DNA from: a virus | Length of the DNA: 28,846 bases | Strand: one strand, 5' to 3' | IMG/VR virus record: IMGVR_UViG_3300028129_000048 | Coordinates: 1-28,846 of that record | Shown: positions 1-24,155 of the stretch, piece by piece | Layout of the letters: each line of letters begins with the position of its first letter | Numbering within the stretch: the first letter of the stretch is position 1 | Position numbers and translations under genes: made by a program | Notes under the pieces: model-generated | The model's database searches: none | What the model saw: the letters and a program-made list of their open reading frames with translations, nothing else | Told to the model about the DNA's origin: nothing

Positions 1-1082
1 AACTCTGGATTATAAACAGGATTCAATGATAATATAGGTCCAACTGCATTTGATTCTCTCATATCTAACATATCATCCATAAAGTCTGTTATTGAACACA
101 GACACAATGCATTGATAGTCATCATTATATACATTCTATTTAACTTTGGTTGTTCTAATAGTCTTTTACAATTACTTAACCACTTGTCATAATCTATGCC
201 ATCACGTATATATTCTGCTTGTATTCCAGTTGCTTCGCAACTTGTAAACATTTCAAACCGTGGCACATAATCTATCACATCTAATAATCTTTGGAATGTC
301 TTTTCTTTTTCTGGAACAAGATTTGAGTTTATAGCAAATCTCATATTCTTGCCACGTTCTGGATTATTCTTAAACCAATCAAACAATTTCCACACACTTG
401 GATGCATAATAGGTTCGCCACCTGTAATTCTTATAGCCTCTAGTGTATCTACCAATCCACCATCTGCTTCCCACCATTCCCAGAATGCAGAGATATATGG
501 GTTCTCTTCATCTGTGCGACCTGCACTTACTGTCCATTCGGCAGAATTTGAAAAATGTTCTCTTTCATCTGAAATGATATTGTCGTATGGTCCGTTGTCT
601 TTTATATCTTTCACCCATGTAGAACTAAATGAAGGATTACAATATGAACATGCAAAGTTACAGGCTTTGTCAAATGATATCTCTAGTGTTCTTAAGAAGG
701 TATCATCATCCCATTTCTTCAAAGGTATCTCATCTAAATCTTCGTCAGTGAACATTCGAGTCTTTAAAACTCGGTCAGATATTCTATCATGTCCTTCGTC
801 TTCGACTGCCCAGCATTTGTAACACTCTGGTGGTCTTTCGCCTTCAAGCATCATCTTACGCATTTTCTTTTTGTGCGAAGTGTTGTGTATTGCGGTTGGA
901 TTATCTTTTAACTCTTCAACATTTATATCATGTGAAGCGGGCAAGTGACAACTGACTGTCTGTCCGTGTCCTAACCATATAGTTGCATTATGCCATTTTG
1001 CGCCACAGAACGAAGAACTTTTAGGATCCATTACCCTAGTTCTATAATCTAAAAATGATTCTGTGTCTGGCTTTCTACTCAT
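1..1082 (-). CDS. Radical SAM protein with N-terminal Twitch/SPASM-like domain (3'-partial)
   Basis: The frame starts at ATG 1082 and stays open to the window edge, so the C-terminus is missing; about 360 codons are visible. The radical SAM signature CNFACSYC (Cys 141, 145, 148), which binds the 4Fe-4S cluster that cleaves S-adenosylmethionine, is followed by the GGEP motif at 221-224. Before the radical SAM core, residues 25-95 hold a second cysteine-rich block (C26, C45, C87, C90, ending GERPPECYKCW). It looks like a Twitch/SPASM auxiliary-cluster domain placed N-terminally, the arrangement of the family called N-terminal-Twitch radical SAM proteins. It is clearly paralogous to the next gene upstream (shared AEYIRDG, ELKDNP and GERP blocks) and overlaps its stop as ATGA, implying translational coupling. 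The shadow frame on the plus strand at 349-822 is not a gene. The substrate is unknown; related enzymes modify peptides or sugars. Confidence 0.9.
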   Translation of the reverse strand, partial: MSRKPDTESFLDYRTRVMDPKSSSFCGAKWHNATIWLGHGQTVSCHLPASHDINVEELKDNPTAIHNTSHKKKMRKMMLEGERPPECYKCWAVEDEGHDRISDRVLKTRMFTDEDLDEIPLKKWDDDTFLRTLEISFDKACNFACSYCNPSFSSTWVKDIKDNGPYDNIISDEREHFSNSAEWTVSAGRTDEENPYISAFWEWWEADGGLVDTLEAIRITGGEPIMHPSVWKLFDWFKNNPERGKNMRFAINSNLVPEKEKTFQRLLDVIDYVPRFEMFTSCEATGIQAEYIRDGIDYDKWLSNCKRLLEQPKLNRMYIMMTINALCLCSITDFMDDMLDMRESNAVGPILSLNPVYNPE

Positions 1083-2872
1083 GGTGCATATTTCTCTACA
1101 TACTCTTCTTTCGCTTCATTCCAGAACTCTGTAAATTCAGGAAATGTTTCTAAGAAATCAAATCCACGTCTCTTATCATATTGAGAAAAGAACTCATAAA
1201 ATCTAATTAGTCTATCACTTAGGTCATCATCACTTATTTCTATGCCTTGTTCTGCCCATGCTAAATCTCTTTGTAATTTTAATACTTCGTAATTTTTAAA
1301 ACCAAGAAAAGATTTTCCATATTCCTCGTCTGGTAAAACTTTTTCTTTCATGTAATCAATATTGTCTTGTATTATTTGTAACATATCTGCATCTGCTACT
1401 TGTATGTTAAACCAACTTGGGTCTCGCATGTAAGGAACGTCAAACCAGATTTTTTGTTGTAATACTTTATGTCCATTGTCTACTTGATATACATAACCAT
1501 ACTTTTCTCTGAGTTCTAGTATGTAATCTAAGAAACCACGTAGTGATGGAATACTCAACATATTAAATGTATTGATAAAGGTAACACTCACTCTACTTGT
1601 CTCAGAAAGAAGCCTATCAACGTTTGTCTTTAGTTTTTCCCAATCTAGTCCGTCTCGTATGTACTCTGCTTGTGGTCCTATACCATCAACACTGATAAAC
1701 ACACTAATATGTTTAACTGAAACATTTTCAAATAGATGTGTCCACTTATTCCATTGTTTGTCTTTTTCATAGTTGTTTAGATATAGAAAAGAATTATTAT
1801 CTGCATCTTCACAAGGACCAACACCTTTAAATTTCTGTTTAATCTCAGATGATGGAAGTGTATCTACATTTGGCTGTATCAGCCATGGGTCAACACCATG
1901 AAGTGTTTCTTCAATGATATACTGTTTCCATTCGTTCCATGAACTTCCATCTCCTGGGTCTACTGCATAAAATAAGACACTTCTTTTATTCGGTGGTGGT
2001 GTTTTAAATAACAAATCTTTGAAGTCTACTGGTATAACCGTAGGGTCATTCTCATCAATTACTGGCTTTTCTAATAGTTTTACTTTCTCAATAAACTTAT
2101 CAAACAACGCATCGTCAGGTGGACACATGTTTGTAGTCATTGAAACTTCTAAATCAGGATTTGGATTTTCTTTTATATAATCTAATACTTTGAATGTATT
2201 CTTGTCCATGAGAGGTTCACCACCTGTCATACGAAAAATCTTCAGATTAGGATACGTTTCTGGAAACCATTTCCAAAATGCTTCGATATACGGATTGTCT
2301 TTACGTGCAACTTCTAAAGGCATCAAGCCAATAGTTTTAAGTTCTTGTATATTGTTATGACCACCACCATCAGAAAATCTAAACGACCCATGTTGTTTGA
2401 TGTCATCTTCCCATGCTGTACTAAGATGAGGTGAACAATATGAACACTTAAAGTTGCATGCCTGATTGAAGTTTACTTCTACATAACGTGGCTTAATATC
2501 GTGGTCCCATGGTTGTTGTACAACTTCTTCCCATGCATCTTTTACCCACCATTCACTTGAACGATAATGTCTATCACTTAATGCATCTTTGTTTGCGTCT
2601 TCTACGTTCCAACAGTACTGACAACCTTTCGGTCTCTCACCATTTTTCATCTGCCTACGTTCTTCTAATTTGAATTTCGTATTATGAAGTGCGTTTGGAT
2701 TATCTTTCAACTCATCTAATGGAATAGGATGTGTTGGTGGATGATAACAACTGTGTGTTCGTCCTTGTGGTAGATGTAAACTAACTTGTAACCATTTCGC
2801 CATGCACATTGATGGCGATAACTTATTTAATTCTAGTTTGGTTACGTTAGCATCATCATCGTAATTAGCCAT
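1079..2872 (-). CDS. Radical SAM protein with N-terminal Twitch/SPASM-like domain
   Basis: 597 aa. The radical SAM motif CNFKCSYC (Cys 139, 143, 146) and GGEP (217-220) mark a SAM-cleaving 4Fe-4S enzyme. An N-terminal cysteine block (C23, C42, C84, C87) with the pattern GERPKGCQYCW resembles a Twitch/SPASM auxiliary iron-sulfur domain, here ahead of the catalytic barrel instead of behind it. It is a paralogue of the partial gene at the left edge but has about 115 extra residues (roughly 268-383) between the mid-barrel strands and the shared AEYIRDG block. The start at 2872 directly follows the TAA of the upstream glycosyltransferase-like gene, and its own TGA overlaps the next ATG. Such enzymes install radical-based modifications on peptides or carbohydrates. 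The glycosyltransferase neighbours point to a glycan or glycoprotein substrate, but this is inference. Confidence 0.9.
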   Translation of the reverse strand: MANYDDDANVTKLELNKLSPSMCMAKWLQVSLHLPQGRTHSCYHPPTHPIPLDELKDNPNALHNTKFKLEERRQMKNGERPKGCQYCWNVEDANKDALSDRHYRSSEWWVKDAWEEVVQQPWDHDIKPRYVEVNFNQACNFKCSYCSPHLSTAWEDDIKQHGSFRFSDGGGHNNIQELKTIGLMPLEVARKDNPYIEAFWKWFPETYPNLKIFRMTGGEPLMDKNTFKVLDYIKENPNPDLEVSMTTNMCPPDDALFDKFIEKVKLLEKPVIDENDPTVIPVDFKDLLFKTPPPNKRSVLFYAVDPGDGSSWNEWKQYIIEETLHGVDPWLIQPNVDTLPSSEIKQKFKGVGPCEDADNNSFLYLNNYEKDKQWNKWTHLFENVSVKHISVFISVDGIGPQAEYIRDGLDWEKLKTNVDRLLSETSRVSVTFINTFNMLSIPSLRGFLDYILELREKYGYVYQVDNGHKVLQQKIWFDVPYMRDPSWFNIQVADADMLQIIQDNIDYMKEKVLPDEEYGKSFLGFKNYEVLKLQRDLAWAEQGIEISDDDLSDRLIRFYEFFSQYDKRRGFDFLETFPEFTEFWNEAKEEYVEKYAP

Positions 2873-3859
2873 TTAGTGTCCGCTCCACCCGGTTTGCTTT
2901 TCTGTTGCTAATGGATTATTAACTCTTGGTGGATTATGATATGTTCTCTTCCAAAATATTGATAGTTCTGGTGTTGGGTCTACTAACTCCATACCTATCT
3001 TATCAGTAAGAATGTCACCAATACGTAAGCACTCATCAAATAGTTTATCATAATCCCATTCAACTCCAGTGCGGCTACATTTTTCATCACCGCCCTCACA
3101 TAGTGTTAGAATTTCTTCTTCAAAATAAGTTTTAAACCAATCAAAAGAAGAGATGTTTTCTAGTTTGTAATCTTCTACAAAGTTAACATCATAACATCCT
3201 AGTCTTGCACCAAAGCAAGCCCATATTCCATTCTCTACATCAGCACCGATATTGCACCATGTTATTAGTCTTTCATAGTTCTTCGGCCATATTCTTTTCT
3301 GAAAGTCTTCAACTGGAACTTGTTTGCCCTCATCTAGTGACATTTTAACACCCTCACGGTATCCCGCACGGAATGCCTGAAATGGTGAACCTGCGTTGAG
3401 TACTTGAGAATAAATGTTATTCATTTGAATATAGTTTAGGTCCCAACAGAAATCTACTTTCTTTGTTTCGTCTTCTGCGTTCTCATGTGTTTTCATTTCT
3501 AAAACTAAATCTACTGGCCAGCATTTGATACCGCCGTTACCGTATACTAAACCATTAACCATGTTCTTAGCACTCCAACTCACAATAGAGTTTTCTAAGT
3601 CTGTGCCTGCTGGAAATGTTATTTCTAGGTCAAAAAACTTCTCATCGACAATGTTGTCACCATCGATAGTAATAAATCTTTCTGTCTCACTTTGTCTCGC
3701 ACATTCTTTGTGTGCGTTGTCAAAACCTTTCACACCATCTACTCTTTTAGCAAATGGGAATTTCATTATTAGATTTGACCAATGTTCTTCTTTTGCTGGT
3801 TCATCGTAACTAATGTAGAATACATCTAAGTCACCAAGAACTACTTTTGTTTCTTTCAT
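2873..3859 (-). CDS. Glycosyltransferase-like protein (GT-A type, DGD motif)
   Basis: 328 aa from the ATG at 3859. That start is chosen because GGAGG lies five bases before it and because it overlaps the upstream TGA as ATGA. A GTG four codons earlier is in frame but would sit inside the ribosome-binding site. The N-terminal half contains a strand ending DVFYISYDEP and then TIDGDN (Asp66-Gly67-Asp68), the position of the metal- and nucleotide-sugar-binding DxD in GT-A glycosyltransferases. Proteins with this opening recur in marine T4-like phages, where they are usually annotated as glycosyltransferase or hypothetical. The C-terminal half (about 200-328) shows no motif I recognise. It is followed at once by the radical SAM gene (TAA abuts ATG). 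The donor and acceptor sugars cannot be read from sequence, and catalytic activity is not certain. Confidence 0.65.
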   Translation of the reverse strand: MKETKVVLGDLDVFYISYDEPAKEEHWSNLIMKFPFAKRVDGVKGFDNAHKECARQSETERFITIDGDNIVDEKFFDLEITFPAGTDLENSIVSWSAKNMVNGLVYGNGGIKCWPVDLVLEMKTHENAEDETKKVDFCWDLNYIQMNNIYSQVLNAGSPFQAFRAGYREGVKMSLDEGKQVPVEDFQKRIWPKNYERLITWCNIGADVENGIWACFGARLGCYDVNFVEDYKLENISSFDWFKTYFEEEILTLCEGGDEKCSRTGVEWDYDKLFDECLRIGDILTDKIGMELVDPTPELSIFWKRTYHNPPRVNNPLATEKQTGWSGH

Positions 3860-4428
3860 ACTTTCCTCCACGAATACTTGTCGAAATACTTCTGTGTATA
3901 TACACTTACGTTGTATTTATTATATGACAACTTAACATGTTTTCCAGCAGACAATAACTCTGAAAATGGTATCTCTATTGTCTTAATTAAGAACTCTGGT
4001 CTATCTTTATAGCAGATAAAGAACACATGGTCAGTCTTTCCAGCAACAGTTAAGAGTTGATTAGGGTCGATACCTATTGTATCTTTTAGTTTTTCATCTG
4101 CTTCAAATTGTATTCCCTCATCATCTAACGAAAGAATAATATCAGCATCTTCCTCAATCATAACTTTATGTAATTGGTTATCTTTGTTTCTTCTCTTAAT
4201 ATCTACTTTTGTTTTCACAATTTCGTATACGAGAGGATTACTTGTTCTACTGACTATATAATCAGAAAACTTATATGTGCCTTCAAGGAATGGCTTAATG
4301 TCTTCTATCTCAAACCATGCAAATAAATCTTTTGTATCTATTATTTTGTTTGTGATTTGTGAGATTTTACTAAAGGAGTCAAAGTAAACAGCACGACATG
4401 TATCTGTTTTGTTTATAAGACTTATCAT
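3856..4428 (-). CDS. Unknown protein in the glycosyltransferase/radical SAM operon
   Basis: 190 aa that I do not recognise. The start at ATG 4428 overlaps the upstream glycosyltransferase stop (ATGA), with a GAGG about ten bases upstream; the end overlaps the next start in the same way. There is no signal peptide, membrane segment, cysteine cluster or DxD motif. The composition is mixed, with acidic patches (EEDADIILSLDDEG) and a basic C-terminus (YFDKYSWRKV). Because it is locked between a glycosyltransferase and another glycosyltransferase-like gene by four-base overlaps, it probably acts with them, for example as an accessory subunit or a small binding protein. That role is inference from position only. 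Confidence 0.75.
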   Translation of the reverse strand: MISLINKTDTCRAVYFDSFSKISQITNKIIDTKDLFAWFEIEDIKPFLEGTYKFSDYIVSRTSNPLVYEIVKTKVDIKRRNKDNQLHKVMIEEDADIILSLDDEGIQFEADEKLKDTIGIDPNQLLTVAGKTDHVFFICYKDRPEFLIKTIEIPFSELLSAGKHVKLSYNKYNVSVYTQKYFDKYSWRKV

Positions 4429-5282
4429 AATACTGCATCCTCTAATTGTTTAATTTTACTTTCATCCATCCAATTCTTCTCTACATAATGTACAGGTAAT
4501 GTTTGAGTGAAATTACCAATCTTAACAGATAAATCATCACTCAGTTCACTAGTGATACTCTTTGTCCAGTTGTTTTGTATCTGATTTACAGGCACATTCT
4601 GTATCATACTTTTCATATGAACAAATGTAGGAACATCTTTAATATCGTAATCACATGTTTCTTCTTCAATATCTAACAGTTGAATGGCTAATGCATATGC
4701 TACATCGGCACTCATCCAGTCTTGTCCTGTACCTTTAAGAAATTTATCATAGTATACATTCCAGTGAACCATAATAAGTTCAACCATTCTAAAGAATTCA
4801 TGTGATAGACCAGAGTTCTTAAAGTAAGTGAAGTTACTATATACGTTTGGTAAGTTTAATTGAGTAAACTTTTTTCTATAGTAATCACTTGTTACGTCTT
4901 CATTTCTAAAAGTTTTAACATTAGTACAACACCAAACTTCTTTCTTAGTAAGATAGTCCCACCAATAGTCTACGCTACTAGTGAATATCATATCACAATC
5001 AAGTATGACTGTCTCATCATAAGGAGTCATATGTTGATACTTCCACTTATTATGTATCTTCCATTTGTCGCCTTTAGCATCGTCATTCCATGGAATATCA
5101 ACAATAGCATCAAACACTTTTTTATGTTTATCAGTTATTAATTTTTTGGTTGCTTCGTCAACGCACACACATAGATTGCTAATTTTTTGAGTTGCTCCAA
5201 GACTAAGAGCAAGTGCATAAGCCATTTCTAAGTAATCAATGTCTTCACTATTCTGTGCGATAGTTATATATCCTCTACTCAT
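4425..5282 (-). CDS. GT-A-like glycosyltransferase
   Basis: 285 aa. The N-terminus MSRGYITIAQN is the first beta strand of a nucleotide-sugar-binding fold, and DETVILDCDMIF carries a DxD-type motif (Asp95-Cys96-Asp97) for metal and sugar nucleotide. The overall pattern is like GT8 and related retaining families, but the subfamily is not certain. The next gene upstream, also a glycosyltransferase, opens with the same MSRG..(I/V).AQN sequence and has the same PYDET-hydrophobic-DxD block, so the two are paralogues. GGAG lies seven bases ahead of the start, and start and stop both overlap their neighbours by four bases (ATGA). The likely role is adding a sugar to a phage or host-surface acceptor, possibly the virion proteins encoded just upstream; the acceptor is inferred. 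Confidence 0.8.
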   Translation of the reverse strand: MSRGYITIAQNSEDIDYLEMAYALALSLGATQKISNLCVCVDEATKKLITDKHKKVFDAIVDIPWNDDAKGDKWKIHNKWKYQHMTPYDETVILDCDMIFTSSVDYWWDYLTKKEVWCCTNVKTFRNEDVTSDYYRKKFTQLNLPNVYSNFTYFKNSGLSHEFFRMVELIMVHWNVYYDKFLKGTGQDWMSADVAYALAIQLLDIEEETCDYDIKDVPTFVHMKSMIQNVPVNQIQNNWTKSITSELSDDLSVKIGNFTQTLPVHYVEKNWMDESKIKQLEDAVL

Positions 5283-6148
5283 TTGCTTTCTCCATGTAAT
5301 AAGAAATCATCTATAAATCTACTTACTGCTTTCTTATTCATAATATGTAAATCTGTACAGGTGAAACGTGATAGTAGATGGTCAGTAATTCTTTCAGCAT
5401 CTGCACAATACATAATAATATCATCATGTGAATTGACCCTAAAAATATCGTCAAGGTCAAAACTGTTATTCAGATAATCAATTGGTAATGATGGTACATC
5501 AAATGCAACACTACCATTCAGTATATGTAATGCCATAGAAAAGGCAAAGTCATTTCTGAATAGATTACCACTACAGTTATATAGGTAATAATAATACTTG
5601 TAATTATATTTTATATGACTTATGAGAGTGAATAGATTTTCGGCAAAATCAGATTTTTTAAAGTAAAATACTGTTGCCCAATACATAGGAATACTAAAGT
5701 TGTCAAGGTATGATATGTTATCTTTGTGTCTTTCAGATACATCTCTATACTTACAATTAATCATTACATCATTGGCACTGTTCCATACTTGGTCTAGTAC
5801 GTTGTTCATAATGAAGTAATCACTATCTATTACAAGAGTTTCATCATAAGGTGACAATTCATATACATCACTTCTACCCATGTTTCTAAACGAAGCATAT
5901 TCGGTATCACGTGTAGTATCTTTGAATAACCTTACATTGTCTGGTTGAAAAGTATCGCTAACTATTACGTTATCAAAATACTCATCAATTAGATTCTTTT
6001 CGGATTCTAGTGTTTCTGTGTTTGTAACTAAGCAAATCTCATCATAAAGAGATAGATGTTTTCTAACATAGCCAGCACAAGCACAGGCTTGTTTAGCATA
6101 GTTAACGTACCCATTATTCTGGGCAAATACTATAATGCCTCGACTCAT
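5279..6148 (-). CDS. GT-A-like glycosyltransferase (paralogue)
   Basis: 289 aa. It begins MSRGIIVFAQN, matching the downstream gene, and carries PYDETLVIDSD with the DxD motif at Asp108-Ser109-Asp110. The middle is very rich in Tyr and Asn, with a stretch near residues 175-190 of nearly all aromatic or basic residues, and the C-terminal half differs strongly from its partner, so donor or acceptor specificity has probably changed. The start at 6148 is one base after the TAA of the upstream small gene; its end overlaps the next ATG (ATGA). It is probably a soluble cytoplasmic enzyme, since I see no signal peptide or membrane segment. The exact sugar and acceptor are unknown. Confidence 0.78.
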   Translation of the reverse strand: MSRGIIVFAQNNGYVNYAKQACACAGYVRKHLSLYDEICLVTNTETLESEKNLIDEYFDNVIVSDTFQPDNVRLFKDTTRDTEYASFRNMGRSDVYELSPYDETLVIDSDYFIMNNVLDQVWNSANDVMINCKYRDVSERHKDNISYLDNFSIPMYWATVFYFKKSDFAENLFTLISHIKYNYKYYYYLYNCSGNLFRNDFAFSMALHILNGSVAFDVPSLPIDYLNNSFDLDDIFRVNSHDDIIMYCADAERITDHLLSRFTCTDLHIMNKKAVSRFIDDFLLHGESK

Positions 6149-6149
6149 A

Positions 6150-6524
6150 TTAAATCTCTAGTACTTTCTCTATTTTACGAGAACTTCTTAATTTCTGATA
6201 ATCATTGTAATAATCATTTACTACTTCGAAGTACAAACTTGAAACTTCAGTTAGAAACTTTTCGGTATCTTCGATATGAACAGGTATATCGTTCTTATCA
6301 AGTATTGATATTTCTGTTTTACCACTAGAAACAACAAAGTTCATAAAAGATATAAGTGACTGGTCTACTGTAAAAGAACCACCAGACGTACTATAACTTA
6401 ATAAGTTTTGTGTTTTTACTTTAAGATTGTTTTTGTTAATATTGAAGGTCTTCATTGTATTAGAAAAGTCTAGTGCTTTTTCTAGTCTCTGAACTGCTTC
6501 TTCTGTTGTTGTATTATCTACCAT
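6150..6524 (-). CDS. Small unknown protein, first gene of the enzyme operon
   Basis: 124 aa, start ATG 6524 with a clear AGGAG at 6533-6537. The N-terminal half is helix-prone (EEAVQRLEKALDFSNTMK). A central strand block (ISILDKNDIPVHIED) is followed by a helical tail (YFEVVNDYYNDYQKLRSSR). I have a general impression that proteins of this kind recur beside tail-fibre and glycosyltransferase genes in marine T4-like phages, but I cannot name a function. It is the first gene after a sigma70-like promoter at 6550-6578 and is followed after one base by the glycosyltransferase start, so it is probably co-transcribed with the whole enzyme operon. There are no cysteines, no signal peptide and no membrane segment. 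It could be an assembly or scaffold factor; that is speculation. Confidence 0.75.
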   Translation of the reverse strand: MVDNTTTEEAVQRLEKALDFSNTMKTFNINKNNLKVKTQNLLSYSTSGGSFTVDQSLISFMNFVVSSGKTEISILDKNDIPVHIEDTEKFLTEVSSLYFEVVNDYYNDYQKLRSSRKIEKVLEI

Positions 6525-6535
6525 AAATTATTCTC

Positions 6536-6558
6536 CTGTATTAGTACTAATAATACAG
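6536..6558. repeat. Perfect 8-bp inverted repeat over the promoter -10/+1
   Basis: CTGTATTA and TAATACAG form a perfect inverted repeat around a 7-base centre, and the centre itself holds the 10-bp palindrome TTAGTACTAA (6541-6550). The expected transcription start lies near 6543, so most of one arm would not be transcribed. The palindrome therefore looks more like a DNA operator over the -10/+1 region than an RNA hairpin. Confidence 0.55.
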
Positions 6559-6578
6559 TAATTTGGGGTAAAAGTCAA
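6550..6578 (-). promoter_or_regulatory. Sigma70-like promoter of the enzyme operon
   Basis: Read on the minus strand: TTGACT (6578-6573), a 17-base spacer, then TATTAT (6555-6550), followed by AGTACTAA (6548-6541). The match to the bacterial housekeeping consensus and the ideal spacing are seen directly. It is in the 57-base gap before the gene starting at 6524. A near-copy with the same AGTACTAA block precedes clpP. Confidence 0.75.
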
Positions 6579-6581
6579 TAG

Positions 6582-7553
6582 TTAAAGTTGAGAAAGTGGA
6601 AAATATGTAGGGCTAGTAATATTTACGCCATCTGGTGTGTCAGATGCAACGAATTCATCAACTGTTACTTGTAGATTACCAGCAACATAATCGCTTCCTA
6701 TCCATGTTCCAGAATAAGGTGGAGTAGACCAGTTGCCAGAATCAGCAACATGAGAATCGTCAAATCCTATTTTTATTTCTACATCTGAAGTTCCGCCAAG
6801 TCTTGCTGAAACATTTAGTTGGTTACCGGAATAATCACCTGTTCCACCTTTTGTGTATACTACTTGATAAGATGATGTGAGCATACTAAATCCATAGCCT
6901 TCTGTGCCTGCACCCGTAGATGCTTCAGTGATAGAATGCTTTATTTTAACAACAGCAATAGCATCTAGCATTGTTTTCCAGTCATTACTTTGAGCATGAG
7001 AATTGTCAATGGCAGAAAGAACCGAATCGATTCTTATTTCACCGCCAGAGTTAAAGAAGTGTCTACGAGCATTAGCATCTGAGTAACGCACTCTTGTTTC
7101 ATAATATATTTGATTAGCATTAGTCCATATAGGAGTACCTAAACTAGGGTCTACATATGTTTTTGCTGAAGATATTCTATTAGCGTTTGCAGTCATATAC
7201 ACTATAGCACTGTTAAGTTTATTACCTACTATATTTGCAATGTCTGTTTTAATAGATGAGATGACACTGTAAACGTCATCTATTGGCCAGTCAGCACTTG
7301 AGGTGCTAACTGGCGAAAATAAAGGTGTGCCTTGATGTCGGCCTGCATAGAACATTGAGGTCAAAAGTTCATCCCACAATGGTGTAGTAACTTCGTCTAC
7401 TGCATAGTTGACTACGAGATGATTTTGACCATATCCCGAATCTCCTGTTCCTATACCAACAATGTTGTTGATATCATCTGCAAAAGAGTTAAATAATTTA
7501 ACTAAATCCTGTTTTTGCGATAGTCCTGTTAAATAATAACTCTGTGGTGCCAT
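6582..7553 (-). CDS. Virion structural protein, tail-appendage-like (paralogue A)
   Basis: 323 aa, start ATG 7553 with GGGA about ten bases upstream. It is Ser/Thr/Gly/Asn-rich and predicted to be mostly beta strand after a short helical N-terminus, and it has no signal peptide, as expected for a virion component. It is paralogous to the next gene upstream: both have a FF..GGE(I/L)R block (here near residues 166-172) and a later DYS.N.L.VSA block followed by a strand and (D/V)(D/A)HVA. Its position downstream of the baseplate genes suggests a baseplate-distal or fibre component that may contact the host. It is the last structural gene before the promoter of the enzyme operon and is a plausible target of those enzymes. 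I cannot equate it with a named T4 protein. Confidence 0.7.
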   Translation of the reverse strand: MAPQSYYLTGLSQKQDLVKLFNSFADDINNIVGIGTGDSGYGQNHLVVNYAVDEVTTPLWDELLTSMFYAGRHQGTPLFSPVSTSSADWPIDDVYSVISSIKTDIANIVGNKLNSAIVYMTANANRISSAKTYVDPSLGTPIWTNANQIYYETRVRYSDANARRHFFNSGGEIRIDSVLSAIDNSHAQSNDWKTMLDAIAVVKIKHSITEASTGAGTEGYGFSMLTSSYQVVYTKGGTGDYSGNQLNVSARLGGTSDVEIKIGFDDSHVADSGNWSTPPYSGTWIGSDYVAGNLQVTVDEFVASDTPDGVNITSPTYFPLSQL

Positions 7554-7577: not shown

Positions 7578-8495
7578 TTATAAAGAATCAGTAACAGTAA
7601 CAGTTGGATTAGTTAAAGTAACTGAGCCACTTGCGTTTGTTAATCTCTTCGATGCAATAGTAACAGTAGAATCACCTGGTACACTGTCAGCACCAGTCCA
7701 TGACCATGCTCCAGCATAACCAGAACCACTGCCTGAACGGGCAACGTGTGCGTCTACTAATTCTGTTTTAATGTACAAGTCTGCACCGCTGTTGGCAGTT
7801 TGTGCTGAAACTTGTAGATAGTTTGCACTGTAATCTGAATCATCTGCTAATTCTTTCTTATGAACAGTATAAGATGTTCCAACGTCACTATGCTTATATC
7901 TTGTACGTGTTCCTACATCTGATGAATCTTCAGGTCTTACTGAGTAAGTGAATGTACCTAATTCAGACGTAAGTTGTTCCCAAGAAGTACCCTGTTGGTT
8001 GCCAGATGTGTCACTATGTGATGCTGAAACTCTAAGTTCACCACCTGCGGCGAACCAAGCATTTAAATTTGCTTGTGAACCGAATGCAAATTTAACGATT
8101 TGAGTTCTAGTACCATTCCAGTTTGATGCTGATTCTGAAGATTCGTTTTGAACACTTGTGTCCCAATCTGAATAAGACCAAGGTGAGTCAAAGCGTGTAT
8201 CGATTGCTGTAACAAAGGCAGACGCCTCGGCACCATAATGGTCCCAGTCGATTACTGTACCGGCATTTACTGCTGTGAATGGATTTGAAATATTGTAGTA
8301 ATTTGAAAGTTTTGCTGCCGCACTATGAATTGAATCGTGATATGCATCATCAATTACATCGCCAGTCGATGGATTTGCCGCGATGGTGTGTGATTGGTTA
8401 TATCCACCATGAACGCCCGTTCCATTTAGAATTTCATTTAATTTGTTGCGAAGACTTGCTAAGTCCGCGTAGTTTATAATTGAGCCTGAAGCCAT
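7578..8495 (-). CDS. Virion structural protein, tail-appendage-like (paralogue B)
   Basis: 305 aa, start ATG 8495 preceded by AGGAG seven bases away. Like its downstream neighbour it is beta-rich and low in Cys, with the shared blocks WFAAGGELRVSA and DYSANYLQVSAQ and a following DAHVARSG. The N-terminal 60 residues (INYADLASLRNKLNEILNG) are helical and resemble the attachment end of a trimeric tail protein. The last ~25 residues are a run of Thr/Val strands. Spacing to its neighbours is 17 and 24 bases, so the three genes from 9172 to 6582 form one unit, probably transcribed from the late promoter at 9219-9226. The function is inferred from composition, paralogy and position. Confidence 0.7.
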   Translation of the reverse strand: MASGSIINYADLASLRNKLNEILNGTGVHGGYNQSHTIAANPSTGDVIDDAYHDSIHSAAAKLSNYYNISNPFTAVNAGTVIDWDHYGAEASAFVTAIDTRFDSPWSYSDWDTSVQNESSESASNWNGTRTQIVKFAFGSQANLNAWFAAGGELRVSASHSDTSGNQQGTSWEQLTSELGTFTYSVRPEDSSDVGTRTRYKHSDVGTSYTVHKKELADDSDYSANYLQVSAQTANSGADLYIKTELVDAHVARSGSGSGYAGAWSWTGADSVPGDSTVTIASKRLTNASGSVTLTNPTVTVTDSL

Positions 8496-8512: not shown

Positions 8513-9172
8513 TTAACTAATTTGTATTGTAACTGTATAATCAATTACAATCGTTCGGTTTGCCGCAAGTAACACGGGATGAAAAGTCACGTGCGTCATC
8601 ATTAATGTTTTTGTCTTATCAAGTGAACCACTATTGGTTACTCCCGATAGTAGTCCAATTTCATCAAAAGTGAATTGTTCTGCTTGTGTAGACGTTGCAG
8701 AACTGTCACTTGTTGGAATTGTTCCACTGACAGCGGTTGCATAATCAGTGTGACTTACATCTACACTGAATTTTACTTTTGCTGTATTGTTTGGTACTAT
8801 GGATCCAGCACCCATGTCCTCTCCTGGATAGTACACTGTATTAATTGTCTCTTGTTCGTAAGTTGGAACATACAATGAAGCGTTACTCGCCGATATTGAT
8901 AGTTGGTCATACGTTGGGTAGACTCTAGGAGAACGATAAGAAAGAGTTGTAGTTGAGGTACTACCACCCTTGCCGAATTGCATCCAATTGATATATGGGG
9001 CAGAACCTGATGAGTTTACACTCGTTGCTTTGCCGCCCATGGCTGAAGCCAATACATATGCCATATTTCCTGGATGAATTGCATTCTTCTTTTGTACAAG
9101 TACTTCGCCACTCTCTTTATCGTAGATTTTGAGTGTGCCTACTACTTGTGATTTTATTACATCTTTAAACAT
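8513..9172 (-). CDS. Virion structural protein next to the baseplate genes
   Basis: 219 aa, start ATG 9172. An N-terminal strand region (GTLKIYDKESGEVL) leads into NAIHPGNMAYVLASAMGG, then a beta-rich Ser/Thr body ending in a hydrophobic strand (TIVIDYTVTIQIS). This layout is common among small structural proteins of marine myoviruses that follow the large baseplate genes. In T4 the position after gene 7 is gene 8 (about 334 aa), but the length and sequence here do not let me assign gp8. It is preceded by the only gap in this half of the window, which carries a perfect T4-type late-promoter octamer 47 bases before the start, so it is probably the first gene of a late transcript. Confidence 0.7.
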   Translation of the reverse strand: MFKDVIKSQVVGTLKIYDKESGEVLVQKKNAIHPGNMAYVLASAMGGKATSVNSSGSAPYINWMQFGKGGSTSTTTLSYRSPRVYPTYDQLSISASNASLYVPTYEQETINTVYYPGEDMGAGSIVPNNTAKVKFSVDVSHTDYATAVSGTIPTSDSSATSTQAEQFTFDEIGLLSGVTNSGSLDKTKTLMMTHVTFHPVLLAANRTIVIDYTVTIQIS

Positions 9173-9202
9173 GTTTATATCCGTCTCTTAGATTATATCT
9201 TA

Positions 9203-9210
9203 TATTTATC
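9203..9210 (-). promoter_or_regulatory. Possible second late-promoter octamer (GATAAATA)
   Basis: GATAAATA on the minus strand, one mismatch from the T4 late consensus, 9 bases downstream of the perfect octamer. The same octamer precedes gp25, which supports it. It may be chance in AT-rich DNA. Confidence 0.35.
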
Positions 9211-9218
9211 TACTATTG

Positions 9219-9226
9219 TATTTATA
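9219..9226 (-). promoter_or_regulatory. T4-type late promoter (TATAAATA)
   Basis: A perfect TATAAATA followed by C on the minus strand, in the 85-base gap between the giant gene and the gene starting at 9172. T4-like phages use this octamer at -10 with the gp55 sigma factor and no -35 element. Confidence 0.65.
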
Positions 9227-15200: not shown

Positions 15201-18200
15201 ATTGTTTCTTAATATATAAGAATCTACTCTGTAATATTCACCAGCATTCCAAGTTTTTAACTGAAGTTTGTCGCCTTCTGTTTGAAATGCTTTTTCTCCA
15301 CTTGCTTTGTCCCAACCCATTGCGTAAAATGTAGGATTAATTTCATCATATCCATGTATTCTAAAACCAAACTTGTTAATTTTAGGCTGTGATATTAATG
15401 TCCATTGACCATAATCAAAGTTTATTAGGCTAACATTACCATCGCCTGAACCTATACCAGTCGCTACGAATGAAGTGCCAATATTATTATCTGTAGAACC
15501 AACTAATGTAAAGTCAGTTGTACCAACATGATTAATTTTATATGTCGTTCCAACTATAAATGAGCCTGCTGGAGTTGTCGATTCTTTTGATGATAGTCCA
15601 GTTACTTTTCTTTTATAGTACTTGTTATCATTTGAATTTAAAACAATATCACCCTCAACATAACTTGACAAGTCTGTATATGCATATACGGGATATTTGT
15701 CTTCTATCGATACTTTTTCTAATACTATTGCACTGAAGAATTCACTTCTATTCGGTACACCAGGATGTACGAATAGATTAAAGTTATCTTCTGGTAACTC
15801 AGTGTATCTACTATTTGATAGCGAGTTGTTTTCTGTTTGTAATTTAAAGTTGTTTACAAATCCACCTAACTTAGAACCCAATTTGAATGTATAGTTTTGT
15901 TTGTCAGCAATTACATTATCATTGTTTATGCCTTCACTCTTGTTTGAGTAAGAAATAATGTTTGCTATTTGTGAACTATATGAGTCCATAATCTCAAATG
16001 GTTTTGATAATAACATTAACATAAATTCGGCAAAAGCAAACTCACTACTACGTGTCCATGCTAATTCAACTGGTGAGTTATCGCCAAATTCCCATGCTTG
16101 GTCCATTTCCAATACATCACTAGATGATATATCATCACCAAAGAATAACACTGCTGGAGTTTTCAGATTACCAGAACCATCAACTGGCACTGGACAATTC
16201 AAAGAATTTTTTGAAATGAGTGCATTCCAAAATGCAATCGTAGTATAATCTGAACCGTAAGTTGTATCAAAGTTTGCTGGCTTTTGTGATTTCTTTATTG
16301 CTTTCCAAGGCTCTTGTAGTGGTCTATCTGTGCCATAAGAATATAATAATTGACCTCTCCAATAACCTGCCGCACTATCATTTTTCGCTCTATAGTTCCA
16401 TGTCTTGTATTCAGATGGTGATGAATCAAATGATTCGTTATTTAAATCATCAATGCTATTTCTCATCATCCATTTCTTAAAGAATGGATACATGATGTAT
16501 TTCTTTTCAGAGTTTGAATAATCTGAGCCTGTTGTTCCATATATCGCATATTCCATGCTTACAATATCAGAACTCGTATTGTCTGTTAGGTTATTAAAGA
16601 TTAAAGTTTCAAACGCAAGTAAGATTGTATCTATTCTGTTTACTTGACCATTAACTAACGGGTATGCTGGTACTAATGAGCCATCATGTCCCTTAATAAA
16701 TTTAGTAGGCGTTTCATATCCATTATCTGTAATAATCTCTGGAATATGTGCCGGTGTTATAGCAAGTGATGTTGCACTAGGTGGAATATATGTTTCTTTA
16801 ATGTTAGTGTAGTGTCTTACTTTGATTATATCACTTGATGCTCTTGTTGATGTGAAAAGAATTTCTGTAGCACCAGAAGACAATGTGTAATCTACATTCA
16901 ATCTTTGTACAACACCATCTAATATTACAACTATATTTTTATCATATAATATAGAATCTCTGAACGTAGGCATAACTTGTTCTGATGCACCATCAATCAC
17001 AGTTACGTCAAGTTCTTCATAGTGAGCATGAATTTCACCAAAGTTTAGCATAGTGCTATCTCTAAAGATACTTACGCTTGTTTGTTTGCCCATAGATATT
17101 GTGTTAATTGCTTCTTCTAAGATAAGTAAATCACTTTTTGTATCACTTGCACTATCAGATAGGGTTTCAATAATTGTAGTTAGAAACTTGTTTTTATAAC
17201 CGTTATAAGAATTAGATAAAAACTCTGTTGCTTTGATAGGGTTATAATCTTCTCTAGTCAATGCAAAATATGCCTCTTTAATATCTACACTGTTCGTAAC
17301 TAGAACACTACCTTGGCTTGCATGTCTTAGTTTATCTGAATTATCACCTATTTTTCTATAGTTATTTCCTGCGTCTGGGCTACCAGTCAATCCAGGTGCT
17401 GTCTCAATTATACGAACAAAGTGTTCATAAACTAAAGAGAATGTCATCTCTGAATTTGAATACGATTTATTATCAACGTTATATTCTAATGCAGGATTAA
17501 TTCTTTGGAATACACCGTCACCGTCGAATACAACTGGAGTATTTGTACAATAATCAACATATATGTTTCCAGTAACTGATGAATTTAATGTAATTTTCTT
17601 ATCAGAACTAGAGTATGAATAGTTTCCTATTTGTTTTTGTCCGTTTACATATATGTCTATTGCGTTAATACTTTTAGGAGCCTGAAGTAATTCAATACTA
17701 GTAGCATCTACTTTGTCGCCGATTTCTTGTCTTAAGTTTCTGTAATCAAAATCAGTTTTAAGTGTCAGAGACTTGTAGTCATTTTTCAACTTGTATGTCA
17801 AGTCATTTGTCAAATCAATATTGAACACATACTCACTTTGAAAATCGCCGGCTTTTAATTTTGGCTTAAATCCCAACTGTCTGTCTAATGTGTAATTTTC
17901 ACTAACTACATAGTGAAATATGTTTATATCATTTGTATATACATTAGAAGAATTATATGCTTTGAAAGTTGGTATGTATTGCCAAGATGCTGAACCTGTA
18001 CCAGAACCTACGTCTGTTGCAGTGAATGTTGTGCCAACCTCATTATCTGATGCACCTATTAATGTGAAGTCTGTCGTTCCTACAGAAGCGATGGTATATG
18101 TAGAACCTACTACAAAAGCACCAGCAATTGCAGATACTGTTTGTGTCAATGATACTGCGGCACTTTCATTACTTAATTCTATGTCTTCATCAAATTCAAT

Positions 18201-18782
18201 AATTGGTCTTGTTGCTTGTGTTATTTCACCAGAGTTACTATCAAATATAAAGTCCTTAATGTCATCGTAGTGATACCAATAGTTATTTTTTGACCACCAG
18301 TTTGTTGGTGTGGTAGTTCTATTGATTGTGACATAATGCTTGTTTACTGAACCCGTAATGTGGGCGTGAAAGTTTGGCGAAACCCAATAATACATACTAT
18401 AGTTTATAAACTTATCTAAATCTATAGGTAGTGCAACTGTGCTTAATGTGGATTTACTATTGAATAATCTTCTGTGGTCGTTTGTTAACGCACCTTTATT
18501 ATACAATGCATTTAACAAGTCATCGTAGAAAACGTTATCAGTTGTCGTTGTATTTGTAAATGTTGGTTCTAATCCGTAATTATCTCTTGCATATGATGTT
18601 GGTGGGAAAGATAGATAAATGTCATCATTCTTAAATATTCCCTTTTCCTTTCTACCTACAAATGCTTTTGTTTTCTCCATCTCACCGACAGAGAAAGCAC
18701 GGTTAAGTGTCGTTTCGAAAATCGATTCTAACTCACGGTTTTTTAGATGTCCTGGTAAAAAGTCATAAATCTTCTTTGCCAT
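9258..18782 (-). CDS. Giant baseplate-wedge protein (gp7 position) with dispersed and tandem repeats
   Basis: 3174 aa. It follows gp6 by one base (TAACATG), the position of T4 gene 7, whose product is 1032 aa. The N-terminus (YDFLPGHLKNRELESIFETT) and the block DKFINYSMYYWV near residue 123 resemble the large structural proteins behind gp6 in marine T4-like phages; ETKPYHAKIR lies near the C-terminal fifth. Five copies of a ~47-residue module (pattern AG.F..G..Y.I...GTTDF...G...N..G..F.A...G.GTG) lie at about residues 220-266, 1070-1117, 2703-2750, 2987-3034 and 3071-3118. Residues about 1690-2190 are Ser/Thr-rich, with an LG(I/L/F) motif roughly every 60 residues near 1935, 1990, 2050, 2114 and 2172. 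There is one intact frame with no sign of frameshift. The structural role is well supported; orthology to gp7 rests on order and is less certain. Confidence 0.75.
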   Translation of the reverse strand: MAKKIYDFLPGHLKNRELESIFETTLNRAFSVGEMEKTKAFVGRKEKGIFKNDDIYLSFPPTSYARDNYGLEPTFTNTTTTDNVFYDDLLNALYNKGALTNDHRRLFNSKSTLSTVALPIDLDKFINYSMYYWVSPNFHAHITGSVNKHYVTINRTTTPTNWWSKNNYWYHYDDIKDFIFDSNSGEITQATRPIIEFDEDIELSNESAAVSLTQTVSAIAGAFVVGSTYTIASVGTTDFTLIGASDNEVGTTFTATDVGSGTGSASWQYIPTFKAYNSSNVYTNDINIFHYVVSENYTLDRQLGFKPKLKAGDFQSEYVFNIDLTNDLTYKLKNDYKSLTLKTDFDYRNLRQEIGDKVDATSIELLQAPKSINAIDIYVNGQKQIGNYSYSSSDKKITLNSSVTGNIYVDYCTNTPVVFDGDGVFQRINPALEYNVDNKSYSNSEMTFSLVYEHFVRIIETAPGLTGSPDAGNNYRKIGDNSDKLRHASQGSVLVTNSVDIKEAYFALTREDYNPIKATEFLSNSYNGYKNKFLTTIIETLSDSASDTKSDLLILEEAINTISMGKQTSVSIFRDSTMLNFGEIHAHYEELDVTVIDGASEQVMPTFRDSILYDKNIVVILDGVVQRLNVDYTLSSGATEILFTSTRASSDIIKVRHYTNIKETYIPPSATSLAITPAHIPEIITDNGYETPTKFIKGHDGSLVPAYPLVNGQVNRIDTILLAFETLIFNNLTDNTSSDIVSMEYAIYGTTGSDYSNSEKKYIMYPFFKKWMMRNSIDDLNNESFDSSPSEYKTWNYRAKNDSAAGYWRGQLLYSYGTDRPLQEPWKAIKKSQKPANFDTTYGSDYTTIAFWNALISKNSLNCPVPVDGSGNLKTPAVLFFGDDISSSDVLEMDQAWEFGDNSPVELAWTRSSEFAFAEFMLMLLSKPFEIMDSYSSQIANIISYSNKSEGINNDNVIADKQNYTFKLGSKLGGFVNNFKLQTENNSLSNSRYTELPEDNFNLFVHPGVPNRSEFFSAIVLEKVSIEDKYPVYAYTDLSSYVEGDIVLNSNDNKYYKRKVTGLSSKESTTPAGSFIVGTTYKINHVGTTDFTLVGSTDNNIGTSFVATGIGSGDGNVSLINFDYGQWTLISQPKINKFGFRIHGYDEINPTFYAMGWDKASGEKAFQTEGDKLQLKTWNAGEYYRVDSYILRNNVPYVCLNSHTAPSDFDESIKNWKPVSKWPTTNKVQAMGYNKLVDDTVKNYNYGDVLQTLDEVAHLIMGYEEYLKLVGWEFTDSTDFGDPVDWENLLLKFLEWQSENNSVGDFITLTPLLTGGIFNTDYGVASVSTETFKNYYRILDASGRRIPTSEVDFHTDGSKLTFASNVPIYGMKMDIRDVEHAFVVDRVDSYGDIIYDPHSHTRNLRMQIDCNRTIDWDGTLTVDGYIVHNDKLIPNFDTMIAETKFYRDTLVDQGLSILNNLKSNQYGYTTRAYLTNHGIERESQLEFYKGFLSHKATVSSINKIVNKNGDFENITHSDIWAVRLSDYGYQSSKYTMSKDITVSDMVQNPFLVQFLDNTKELLPVTKKNNIAIKTTGYVNESDVTYITGTYDSLTSLTGVTLYEGDTAWLQTDEDRDWDVVRLSEVAEISYVGETSDNQLYIGTASAINSTSITKPIYLKIDADEISPTIAGYYLLSANGTKTVNGTVIHEYLIFEEDFEPLTIEIDSATTNSIFVPTSTNSGVEAIGSISNPVFESGDIITIDGTQHTYAPSGATSSGITILGTVANSVVTEGEQASFVVYNNDGLVENGTNTTVTFSGTVATTTGSFSSTQGDQVTIDGTTLTIDYSQSSTISETTTATRSSSLTTGNTVIIDATTKTVADLTVTGTVTSPTMTSTKPLTINGDTISLTSGDDLTAIVTAINTGTSQVVASTSSNQLVLTTSLPQLTMTGGSLIDLGLSTTNSYTDSKLDNLASDLTTISDITATIDSNNRMTIVSSGSSMVISGTALSELGITAGTYETNQNPTIDSVATQINARSISGVTATVVTGTLKISSTNHNLDIVEVTSGAMSRLGFATTTVAIDATDTIVSDLNAQVFTISTAFAVKSDRQVKITSSEKTIIVSNILGNPLSDMGITAGTYTNTVSTSPTALEFASQITSASDVVVGVSSDGRMIFTNDSVSMSFSGTPDAILTKVGLSLTYSNVTSNANFKAMLWKSVRYTPDYNGTTRLEFEQELGLNSASKLWIDDYDTVGWAVLSYSPIAGKTVHAKQASVIDTNLTKRLIVKDGEDFTVHNIYDPLNLKMAGSTISKLDYVMWTDPAKYDTASSNDAWLDERLNKMWWDTDLARFYRYNDYGDSAGNLNIDFVRRYWGKTVDNSKLIVKKWTKSRTLPVGVEAYNSKKFFDEDAGREVIEYFFWSSTDKDAKDLSLLLASNGPRNKFLPVGKRSVIMSNDSKSYNSQTLTASLEYQVEEGIVKEHSDWQLLPENDHTPVPDLFLDDLINSVSGTTIMQSYATKLIASQLTDVNFAVVTPVDSMGVQFMSGLTIDDIAVTTDGRTVNAEYLTIDGSNLKISQTHTMTVGDVLRVYRVEDTENNWFTNKYAMRDNFSTVVNDAMSRKLLQTEYYNYEQYIDTDDYIFSLGDWYIDDSFKKIDNFAYLSTTREFDMLERYENGISSFKLKLPTHNEFYFEYNGELRLVNRSNSVLNISLGFNEFTYPETVSAGEFVIGNTYEILEVGTTDFVSLGANSNSSGGKFVATGIGSGTGTAFSQYYNNATGIQIHELMNLIRNRSKTEFINNIFYRMIDYLYTEKSYPDWLFKTSYFDLDLHSRPLKQHAVYQRESEEDILEYIRETKPYHAKIRNIKRLNQLSDTASVTMSAEEKLKMTLDFGEASRYGEAVYDGIATDDIADGEYEQGGLIRYRPLATTESGGFDTGEVNARAVESSVVVIQNYLDAPGGADADVSGIQNLGNLHLDKTDFFVYDVYGRGYNIPVKASCAVAEDVVITAGSFVVGRTYTIVKPGTTDFVSEQGASANTVGTEFVATVVGSGTGTASGPFMITSSGLTNAQLVASKKNKRLIAVMKASSHTHNAGKFKIGEQYKIDTIGTTDFTLVGGVSNTVGGIFTASGVGEGTGTATCKEGNDIEFMMYDKHTSGTLNIDDRGLYTTMTYDFKQGDRVFLLDTPLALVLQDPK
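9427..9573 (-). repeat. GTTDF module, copy 5
   Basis: Encodes about residues 3071-3118 of the giant protein (AGKFKIGEQYKI...IGTTDFTLVGG...GEGTGTA). Compared with copy 4, 36 residues upstream, framework positions are kept and surface positions differ. Confidence 0.75.
9687..9825 (-). repeat. GTTDF module, copy 4
   Basis: Encodes about residues 2987-3034 (AGSFVVGRTYTI...PGTTDFVSEQGAS...GSGTGTA). One extra residue follows GTTDFVS relative to the other copies. Confidence 0.75.
10545..10677 (-). repeat. GTTDF module, copy 3
   Basis: Encodes about residues 2703-2750 (AGEFVIGNTYEI...VGTTDFVSLGANS...GSGTGTA). It sits between an otherwise unrelated strand region and a helical IHELMNLIRNRSK segment, as if inserted. 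Confidence 0.75.
12190..13700 (-). repeat. Ser/Thr-rich tandem repeat region with ~60-residue period
   Basis: Within the giant gene, this segment encodes weakly conserved units that each end in a strand and LG(I/L/F) plus a Thr-rich turn: DLGLSTTNSY, ELGITAGTYETN, RLGFATTT, DMGITAGTYTNT, KVGLSLTYSN. LGITAGTY and MGITAGTY are nearly identical, about 124 residues (two units) apart. The upstream part has VTIDGTTLTID-like strand repeats. Boundaries are approximate. Confidence 0.6.
15430..15576 (-). repeat. GTTDF module, copy 2
   Basis: Encodes about residues 1070-1117 (AGSFIVGTTYKI...VGTTDFTLVGSTDN...GSGDGNV). It lies over 800 residues from copy 1 and over 1500 from copy 3. Confidence 0.75.
17985..18125 (-). 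repeat. GTTDF module, copy 1
   Basis: Encodes about residues 220-266 (AGAFVVGSTYTI...VGTTDFTLIGASDN...GSGTGSA). It follows a conserved N-terminal region and precedes IPTFKAYNSSN, again looking like an insert between framework segments. Confidence 0.75.
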
Positions 18783-18783
18783 G

Positions 18784-23564: not shown

Positions 23565-24155
23565 ATGCCAAATTTAGTACCAATGGTCGTTGACCAGTCA
23601 ACAAGTGGAGAGCGTAGTTATGATATTTTCTCTCGTTTGCTGAAAGAAAGAGTTATATTTCTGACAAGTGAAGTAAATGACTATCAGGCAGACTTGATTT
23701 GTGCCCAGTTGTTGTTCTTAGAAGCAGAAAATTCAGAAAAAGATATTCATTTCTATATCAATTCACCCGGTGGTGCAGTGACTTCTGGCATGGCAATATA
23801 TGATACTATGCAGTTTATTTCATCTCCAGTATCAACTACTGTGATGGGTCAAGCGTGTTCTATGGGTTCACTACTTGCTCAAGCAGGTGCTAAAGACAAA
23901 AGATATGTATTACCGAATAGTCGCACAATGATTCATCAACCAAGCGGTGGTGCTGGTGGACAAGCAACTGATATGGAAATTCAAGTAAAAGAAATTCTTA
24001 AGATGAAAGAAAGACTAACTGGAATATATGTTTCACATAATACTGCTGGAAAAACATTCGAAGAGTTGACTGAAGCGATGGAGCGAGACAACTTTATGTC
24101 TGCTGAAGAAACTGTTGCTTTTGGACTAGCAGATAAAGTTATAGATAAGCGTTAG
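23565..24155 (+). CDS. clpP: ATP-dependent Clp protease proteolytic subunit ClpP
   Basis: 196 aa, nearly full-length relative to mature bacterial ClpP but without a propeptide: it begins [12 protein letters not shown], where the processed E. coli enzyme begins. The serine-protease triad is intact: Ser99 in GQACSMGS, His124 in MIHQPSGG and Asp175 in ERDNFMS. INSPGG (65-70), which forms the oxyanion region, and the handle helix QATDMEIQ are also present. ClpP forms a 14-mer that degrades proteins fed to it by ClpX or ClpA; neither unfoldase is in this window, so it probably uses the host's. It is the only plus-strand gene, has its own strong sigma70-like promoter and AAGGA site, and its TAG overlaps the stop of the opposing lysozyme-like gene. 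Similarity to bacterial ClpP suggests acquisition from a host. Possible roles are host protein turnover or virion protein processing. Confidence 0.95.

Follow-up and report, generated by a model that had tools for sequence, protein, structure and literature searches.

Large arrays of radical S-adenosylmethionine (SAM) genes have been noted in phages since 2010, with no function attached to them. They were called highly unusual in the Campylobacter phages CP220 and CPt10 (11 to 12 genes, part of them in an interchangeable module [PMC2853527]), and radical SAM genes were also noted in phage IBB_35 (PMC3322345), in a T4-like environmental genome with 12 of them (PMC5332604), and in Aeromonas phage 332-Vera, which has many, eight of them in the structural cluster (PMC12390700). 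The host recognition cluster of pelagimyophages contains GT8 glycosyltransferases and radical SAM cassettes beside VrlC and the tail-fiber genes (PMC7029224), while virion glycosylation in mycobacteriophages provides a precedent (Freeman 2023, cited in PMC12619734 and PMC11256854). The accessible portions of the published accounts of phage radical SAM arrays describe neither a function nor a glycosyltransferase core, subscription literature and preprints lying mostly outside the search. Here, we analyze a 28,846-base contig of an uncultured virus (IMG/VR record IMGVR_UViG_3300028129_000048; this whole stretch is referred to as the window), in which the minus strand from 6524 to 3 is filled by seven tightly packed genes, namely, a putative glycosyltransferase block (g1 to g5) followed by two radical SAM enzymes of the N-Twitch family (SAM2 and SAM1). 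This unit represents a widespread system of uncultured jumbo phages.

Gene content and conservation of the operon

The seven-gene operon is genuine. Its junctions, in order from g1 to SAM1, measure +1, −4, −4, −4, 0, and −4 bases, bearing out the tight packing with ATGA overlaps that a preliminary description of this DNA had noticed. These values take the g5 start as the ATG at 3859, which has a GGAGG just 5′ and overlaps the g4 stop as ATGA, whereas the mechanical GTG start would give −16. The first gene, g1 (6150 to 6524, minus strand, as are all seven), encodes a small conserved protein of 124 amino acids (aa) with no assigned function. The next two, g2 (5279 to 6148) and g3 (4425 to 5282), are paralogous (hhalign, 99.6%), and the N-terminal half of each, which is GT-A-like, carries a DxD motif: DSD in g2, whose aspartates (D108 and D110) do not vary, and DCD in g3, whose aspartates are at least 90% conserved. 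The g3 profile matches glycogenin-1, a GT8 enzyme (E value of 3e-4). Because this is the sole similarity and neither protein matches a Pfam family, both are termed here GT8-like and are not assigned to GT8. In the following slot, which is fixed, lies the fast-evolving g4 (3856 to 4428), with 190 aa here and approximately 330 to 444 aa in its equivalents from other lineages (hhalign, 95.1% between g4 and its counterpart in distant lineages). The g5 protein (2873 to 3871; 328 aa from the better ATG start) has a D70-x-D72-N73 motif that is invariant among 16 aligned sequences, D70 and D72 being the conserved metal-binding DxD. All matches of its AlphaFold model (pLDDT of 85.2) at an E value of <0.001 in Foldseek were GT-A enzymes (TarP, WrtF, and ThuS), although with low TM-scores. 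The pair of GT-A-like paralogues of the preliminary description is borne out, as is its third, DGD-type protein as a putative GT-A glycosyltransferase. In searches against Pfam, PHROG, and NCBIfam, g1, g2, g4, and g5 received no name, and the only PHROG match of g3 was an unnamed family.

Both SAM proteins score above the curated cutoff of the N-Twitch family (NF033640, N_Twi_rSAM; 170 bits), with 316 bits for SAM2 (1079 to 2872; 597 aa) and 255 bits for SAM1 (3 to 1082), which is cut by the contig end and reaches 468 aa at full length in another contig (L004). Each has an N-terminal twitch of the form C-x(13)-G-x(4)-C, followed by CxxC and then by CX3CX2C (C23..C42, C84xxC87, and CNFKCSYC at 139 in SAM2; C26..C45, C87xxC90, and CNFACSYC at 141 in SAM1). 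Across 432 N-Twitch proteins, the CX3CX2C motif was intact in all but one (431/432), and the N-terminal twitch, tested as CX9-15GX4C plus CxxC, was found in 404. SAM2 is among the most conserved proteins of the unit, with a median identity of 71%. Its structure search did not discriminate (best E value of 0.12), with weak matches to MoaA, SuiB, EpeE, AprD4, and BlsE. An identity as viperin was rejected (23 bits versus a cutoff of 180), and a weak Pfam match to GH10 was regarded as due to chance. SAM2 also presents an insertion of ~115 aa inside the radical SAM region (about residues 272 to 382; 1700 to 2060, minus strand), at a site where most orthologues carry a different, shorter insert.

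To count neighbors, we considered only loci with at least 5 kb of flank on both sides, taken from the best 80 of >500 matches per bait; these contigs are not independent of each other. A first scan was baited with SAM2 and hence biased, and it was rerun with g5, g2, and g1 as baits. The g1, g3, and g5 genes were present in 55/55 g2-anchored loci, and g2, g3, and g5 in 56/56 g1-anchored loci, so that these four genes were found together and not singly in unrelated places. Loci anchored on g5 contained g1 and g2 in 55/55 cases and g3 in 49/55. N-Twitch genes were less constant (30/55, 49/56, and 45/55 loci anchored on g2, g1, and g5, respectively). When ~8 kb downstream was scanned, they appeared at 43 of the 55 g2-anchored loci and were lacking from the other 12. 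These counts indicate a core formed by the glycosyltransferase block, to which a radical SAM array is often attached but from which it can be separated. Gene order is retained far beyond chance, even in viral loci whose proteins share about 30% identity, and in the SAM2-baited scan the gene directly after g5 was nearly always SAM2.

A sigma70-type promoter (TTGACT-N17-TATTAT; 6550 to 6578, minus strand) lies in the gap between t1 and g1. A scan of the sequence by itself would not set it apart from chance, but its position is conserved across loci: about 50 bases before g1, a motif scoring at least 10/12 was found in 34 of 40 nonredundant loci versus 4.3% of random 110-mers, and TTGAC precedes g1 in 60 of 61 loci. 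This conservation supports the single operon promoter noted in the preliminary description and also indicates that the unit is more than an extension of the tail operon. Within g4, ahead of g5, a motif resembling the late type was found in 27/43 loci, although this stretch is coding sequence.

Downstream arrays, bacterial relatives, and tail neighborhood

The window ends inside the second SAM gene, so that the count of two radical SAM paralogues was an artifact, although their assignment to the N-terminal-Twitch family stands. A 92-kb contig (L004) that shares identical operon DNA extends past the end of the window, and there the full-length SAM1 is followed by an N-Twitch gene, a P-loop protein, a SPASM-type radical SAM gene, two more N-Twitch genes, an SGNH-like gene, and sugar genes. 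Among 26 related contigs, the number of N-Twitch matches per contig varied from 2 to 21, and the longest tandem run comprised eight genes. The suggestion that two SAM paralogues imply two successive steps was consequently abandoned, since the pair only starts the array. The same clusters hold other classes of radical SAM enzymes; sugar genes recognized by homology (C-methyltransferase, DegT aminotransferase, epimerase, UDP-sugar dehydrogenase, and a polysaccharide-type cupin isomerase); and conjugation-type genes (carbamoyltransferase and acyl carrier protein). By simple hydropathy, none of the 223 genes in six phage clusters has three or more predicted transmembrane segments, versus 25 of 276 in the bacterial loci described below. 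The lack of a phage-encoded exporter or polymerase in these six clusters fits a soluble acceptor.

Two annotations of array genes were discarded. A sulfotransferase label for the P-loop proteins, given by eye, was dropped, as it had no Pfam support, and a 74-aa protein (c22), considered as a precursor of a ribosomally synthesized and posttranslationally modified peptide (RiPP), was set aside because its start is shared with a larger neighboring protein. Contig G015 presents a 1,295-aa fusion protein (L083, complement of 17007 to 20894) with a SPASM-type radical SAM start, followed by epimerase-like and DegT genes. It also carries a PaaD-type Fe-S assembly protein (PF01883; L088, 17622 to 17960), in a phage with many Fe-S enzymes, and a phage-encoded membrane subunit of a tripartite tricarboxylate transporter, TctA (PF01970, E value of 3e-87; L091, 15529 to 17034), with a TctC-like protein (named by eye) just upstream. 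A NifU_N/IscU homologue is present in contig G010, and these Fe-S genes match the set described for the environmental genome in PMC5332604.

Relatives of SAM2 were also found in bacterial genomes, beside an ATP synthase operon in one locus (L111) and beside sugar genes in another (L112). The metagenome-assembled genome (MAG) of the former, G027, has about 20 N-Twitch genes above the cutoff, seven of them adjoining the ATP synthase operon. Among 114 genomes of the same phylum, 30 had N-Twitch genes above the cutoff, and g5 relatives appeared in 6, all within those 30 (P of about 2e-4). Nine of 11 strong g5 matches were located at most 2 kb from an N-Twitch gene, versus about 2% expected by chance. 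As this pairing is seen in bacterial genomes, the partnership of g5 and N-Twitch enzymes is independent of phage tail synteny. The polysaccharide-type neighbors in bacteria include nucleotide-sugar enzymes, putative ABC transporters, and putative GT39-type membrane transferases, all named by eye without a hidden Markov model check. A tree built from N-Twitch proteins (71 from phages and 43 from bacteria) required 12 changes between phage and bacterium versus 34 with shuffled labels, indicating that transfers happened yet the groups are largely separate. Two loci assigned to a MAG of Candidatus Neomarinimicrobiota (Marinimicrobia) carry the same core order (L113 and L114; PBPT01000082 and PBPT01000016). 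A 335-kb contig of that MAG combines phage tail genes with the g1-g5-SAM2 order and, for that reason, probably belongs to a jumbo phage that was binned together with the bacterial sequences.

Upstream of the operon, in order of transcription, are located a hub gene, an endolysin-like gene, gp25-like and gp6-like baseplate genes, a 3,174-aa virion structural protein (phrog_10938), which is VrlC-like by size and position, and the minus-strand genes t3, t2, and t1. The t3 gene (8513 to 9172; 219 aa) is a tail-region protein that matches a PHROG family of unknown function (phrog_11259, E value of 4e-31) and is syntenic in 57 loci. The t2 (7578 to 8495; 305 aa, no PHROG match) and t1 (6582 to 7553; 323 aa) products would be tail-appendage-like, judging from their position and synteny, and t1 is the most variable neighbor (median identity of 44%). 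Two T4-like late-promoter motifs, TATAAATA and GATAAATA, precede t3 (9202 to 9226, minus strand) and are conserved across loci, ATAAATA/CTAAATA being found upstream of t3 in 34/38 nonredundant loci versus 1.8% of random 110-mers. Given the contrast between the late and sigma70-type motifs, the tail genes and the operon seem to be separately promoted neighbors, although readthrough from the former into the latter is possible. A ClpP-like/head-maturation-protease-like gene (23565 to 24155; phrog_94, E value of 5e-51) lies on the plus strand amid the baseplate genes.

Possible products and targets of the proposed pathway

The explanation that we tentatively favor, with a probability of about 0.4, is a pathway in which the phage makes a glycan, tailors it with radical SAM enzymes, and decorates a tail appendage with it. 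The operon would be the proximal part of this phage-encoded pathway, in which g2, g3, and g5, as predicted soluble GT-A glycosyltransferases, would use nucleotide sugars to build or lengthen a glycan; the phage itself may contribute to the supply of some of these sugars through the clustered sugar genes, as their homology suggests. The N-Twitch enzymes would then modify the sugar or the acceptor by radical C-H chemistry; going by the chemistry of the superfamily, candidate reactions are epimerization, deoxygenation, C-C bond formation, and methylation. The likeliest acceptor would be a tail-appendage protein encoded just upstream, and a virion surface with rare sugars might tune receptor binding or hide the virion from host and competitor defenses. 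Transcription would start from the operon's own promoter, whose motif is conserved, and might be early. A mechanism at the glycan level is likely, and the sugar genes downstream give a glycan pathway good support; that its acceptor is a tail appendage is what we infer. The idea of one pathway beside the tail genes, already present in the preliminary description, gains from the conserved unit and the sugar genes and loses from the separability of the radical SAM part.

Several observations weigh against tail-appendage decoration. Neither g2 nor g3 had a Pfam match at an E value of ≤1, g5 had no Pfam glycosyltransferase match, and the TM-scores of its GT-A fold matches were only about 0.25 to 0.35. 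Because the glycosyltransferase block occurs without N-Twitch genes (12/55 loci), it and the radical SAM array do not have to share a product. In addition, the bacterial relatives sit in envelope-polysaccharide surroundings, and the operon motif is of an early type, unlike the late motif of the tail genes, which fits modification of the host equally or better. A more ambitious version, in which the glycosyltransferases and up to about 20 radical SAM enzymes form an assembly line that both builds and radically remodels a tail-appendage glycan while the bacterial g5–N-Twitch pairs serve envelope glycans, appears doubtful.

The main and close rival of virion decoration is the remodeling of the host envelope, in which early enzymes would alter lipopolysaccharide or capsule sugars, blocking superinfection by competing phages or changing the receptor. 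The operon's own conserved sigma70-type promoter and the polysaccharide-type genes (by-eye names) adjoining the bacterial relatives are in its favor, and such a role is proposed for the glycosyltransferases of the pelagimyophage host recognition cluster in PMC7029224. However, no membrane glycosyltransferase, flippase, polymerase, or exporter is found among the 223 genes of the six phage clusters, although host machinery could serve, and the linkage to tail genes is fixed even though the promoter is separate. We consider this rival a real possibility, if short of even odds.

The radical SAM enzymes might instead act directly on peptides of the tail or of other proteins (by RiPP-like cross-linking, epimerization, or methylation), while the glycosyltransferases would have a separate role, whether on the same protein or a different one. 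Many radical SAM enzymes that modify peptides have Twitch or SPASM domains, the weak matches of the SAM2 model include SuiB and EpeE, both peptide enzymes, and the array can be separated from the glycosyltransferases. The same weak matches, however, include MoaA and the sugar/nucleoside enzymes AprD4 and BlsE, the surrounding genes are of the sugar type, and g5 is paired with N-Twitch enzymes in bacteria. No precursor peptide candidate was noticed, although without a dedicated test for a precursor or for a RiPP recognition element/PqqD-like domain. Direct peptide modification seems unlikely.

Less probable still is a glycosyltransferase core beside an unrelated hypervariable hotspot, where radical SAM genes pile up next to the tail genes as independent cassettes with no single pathway. 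The variable content of the arrays, the loci that have g2 without N-Twitch genes, and the interchangeable radical SAM modules reported for CP220 and CPt10 (PMC2853527) would fit such a hotspot. The nearly invariable first place of SAM2 after g5, its conservation, and its pairing with g5 relatives in bacteria would not. DNA hypermodification involving both enzyme types is very improbable. DNA can be a substrate of phage glycosyltransferases, and some base hypermodifications are known to employ radical SAM enzymes, but the unit sits with tail genes. Thymidylate synthase-family genes were found in five of nine incomplete contigs, and the one that was read (G013) has the canonical PFNIASY motif and looks like ThyA and not like a hydroxymethylase.

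Phage affiliation and comparison with described systems

The large terminase subunit (TerL) of a 187-kb relative is closest to those of PA5oct, Phosso, and Atu_ph07, and the gp6 protein to those of jumbo phages such as GAP32 and Munch. These affinities place the phages near PA5oct/Atu_ph07/121Q-like jumbo phages and not among the pelagiphages; the source is a giant virus that infects bacteria, probably in a marine habitat. None of SAM2, g3, g5, and g1 (the last two in two versions each) had a tblastn match at 1e-5 among 50,697 phage records. When a divergent SAM2 was used under relaxed settings, the only proteins retrieved were distant members of the radical SAM group from KVP40-type Vibrio phages, whose genes adjoin NAD/nucleotide genes or hypothetical proteins and not tail genes.

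The SAM proteins of the window belong to NF033640 by score and keep both the twitch and the CX3CX2C motif. That family has no assigned reaction, and what differs here is that, in phages, its members follow a fixed glycosyltransferase block as arrays. CP220, CPt10, and IBB_35 are likewise T4-related phages with many radical SAM genes, but, as far as the available portions of those reports go, the CP220/CPt10 module is accompanied by a glycine amidinotransferase and no block resembling g1 to g5 is described. The environmental genome of PMC5332604 and 332-Vera share with our contigs the many radical SAM genes in one phage and a PaaD-type Fe-S gene, as in G015. The accessible text on them describes no pairing with glycosyltransferases, and 332-Vera belongs to a different, nucleus-forming family. 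Mycobacteriophages also encode glycosyltransferases that act on virion proteins, although they are unrelated phages and the available portions report no radical SAM enzymes. The pelagimyophage cluster resembles this locus in its combination of GT8-type glycosyltransferases with radical SAM cassettes and in its place beside VrlC and tail-fiber genes, matched here by the VrlC-like phrog_10938 protein and the gp6-like gene upstream. The terminase and baseplate affinities differ, and g1, g5, and N-Twitch genes, when looked for in pelagimyophage HTVC008M, were not found.

Tying the N-Twitch family to a strictly conserved glycosyltransferase block, one that has a promoter of its own and a parallel in bacteria, turns these unexplained cassettes into a testable hypothesis of glycan tailoring. 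If correct, it would bring radical SAM chemistry to the surface glycans of viruses and provide the first functional context for a large, unassigned enzyme family. Compared with the phage radical SAM cassettes already reported without a function, the new elements are a conserved core of glycosyltransferases with its promoter and the partnership of g5 with radical SAM enzymes.

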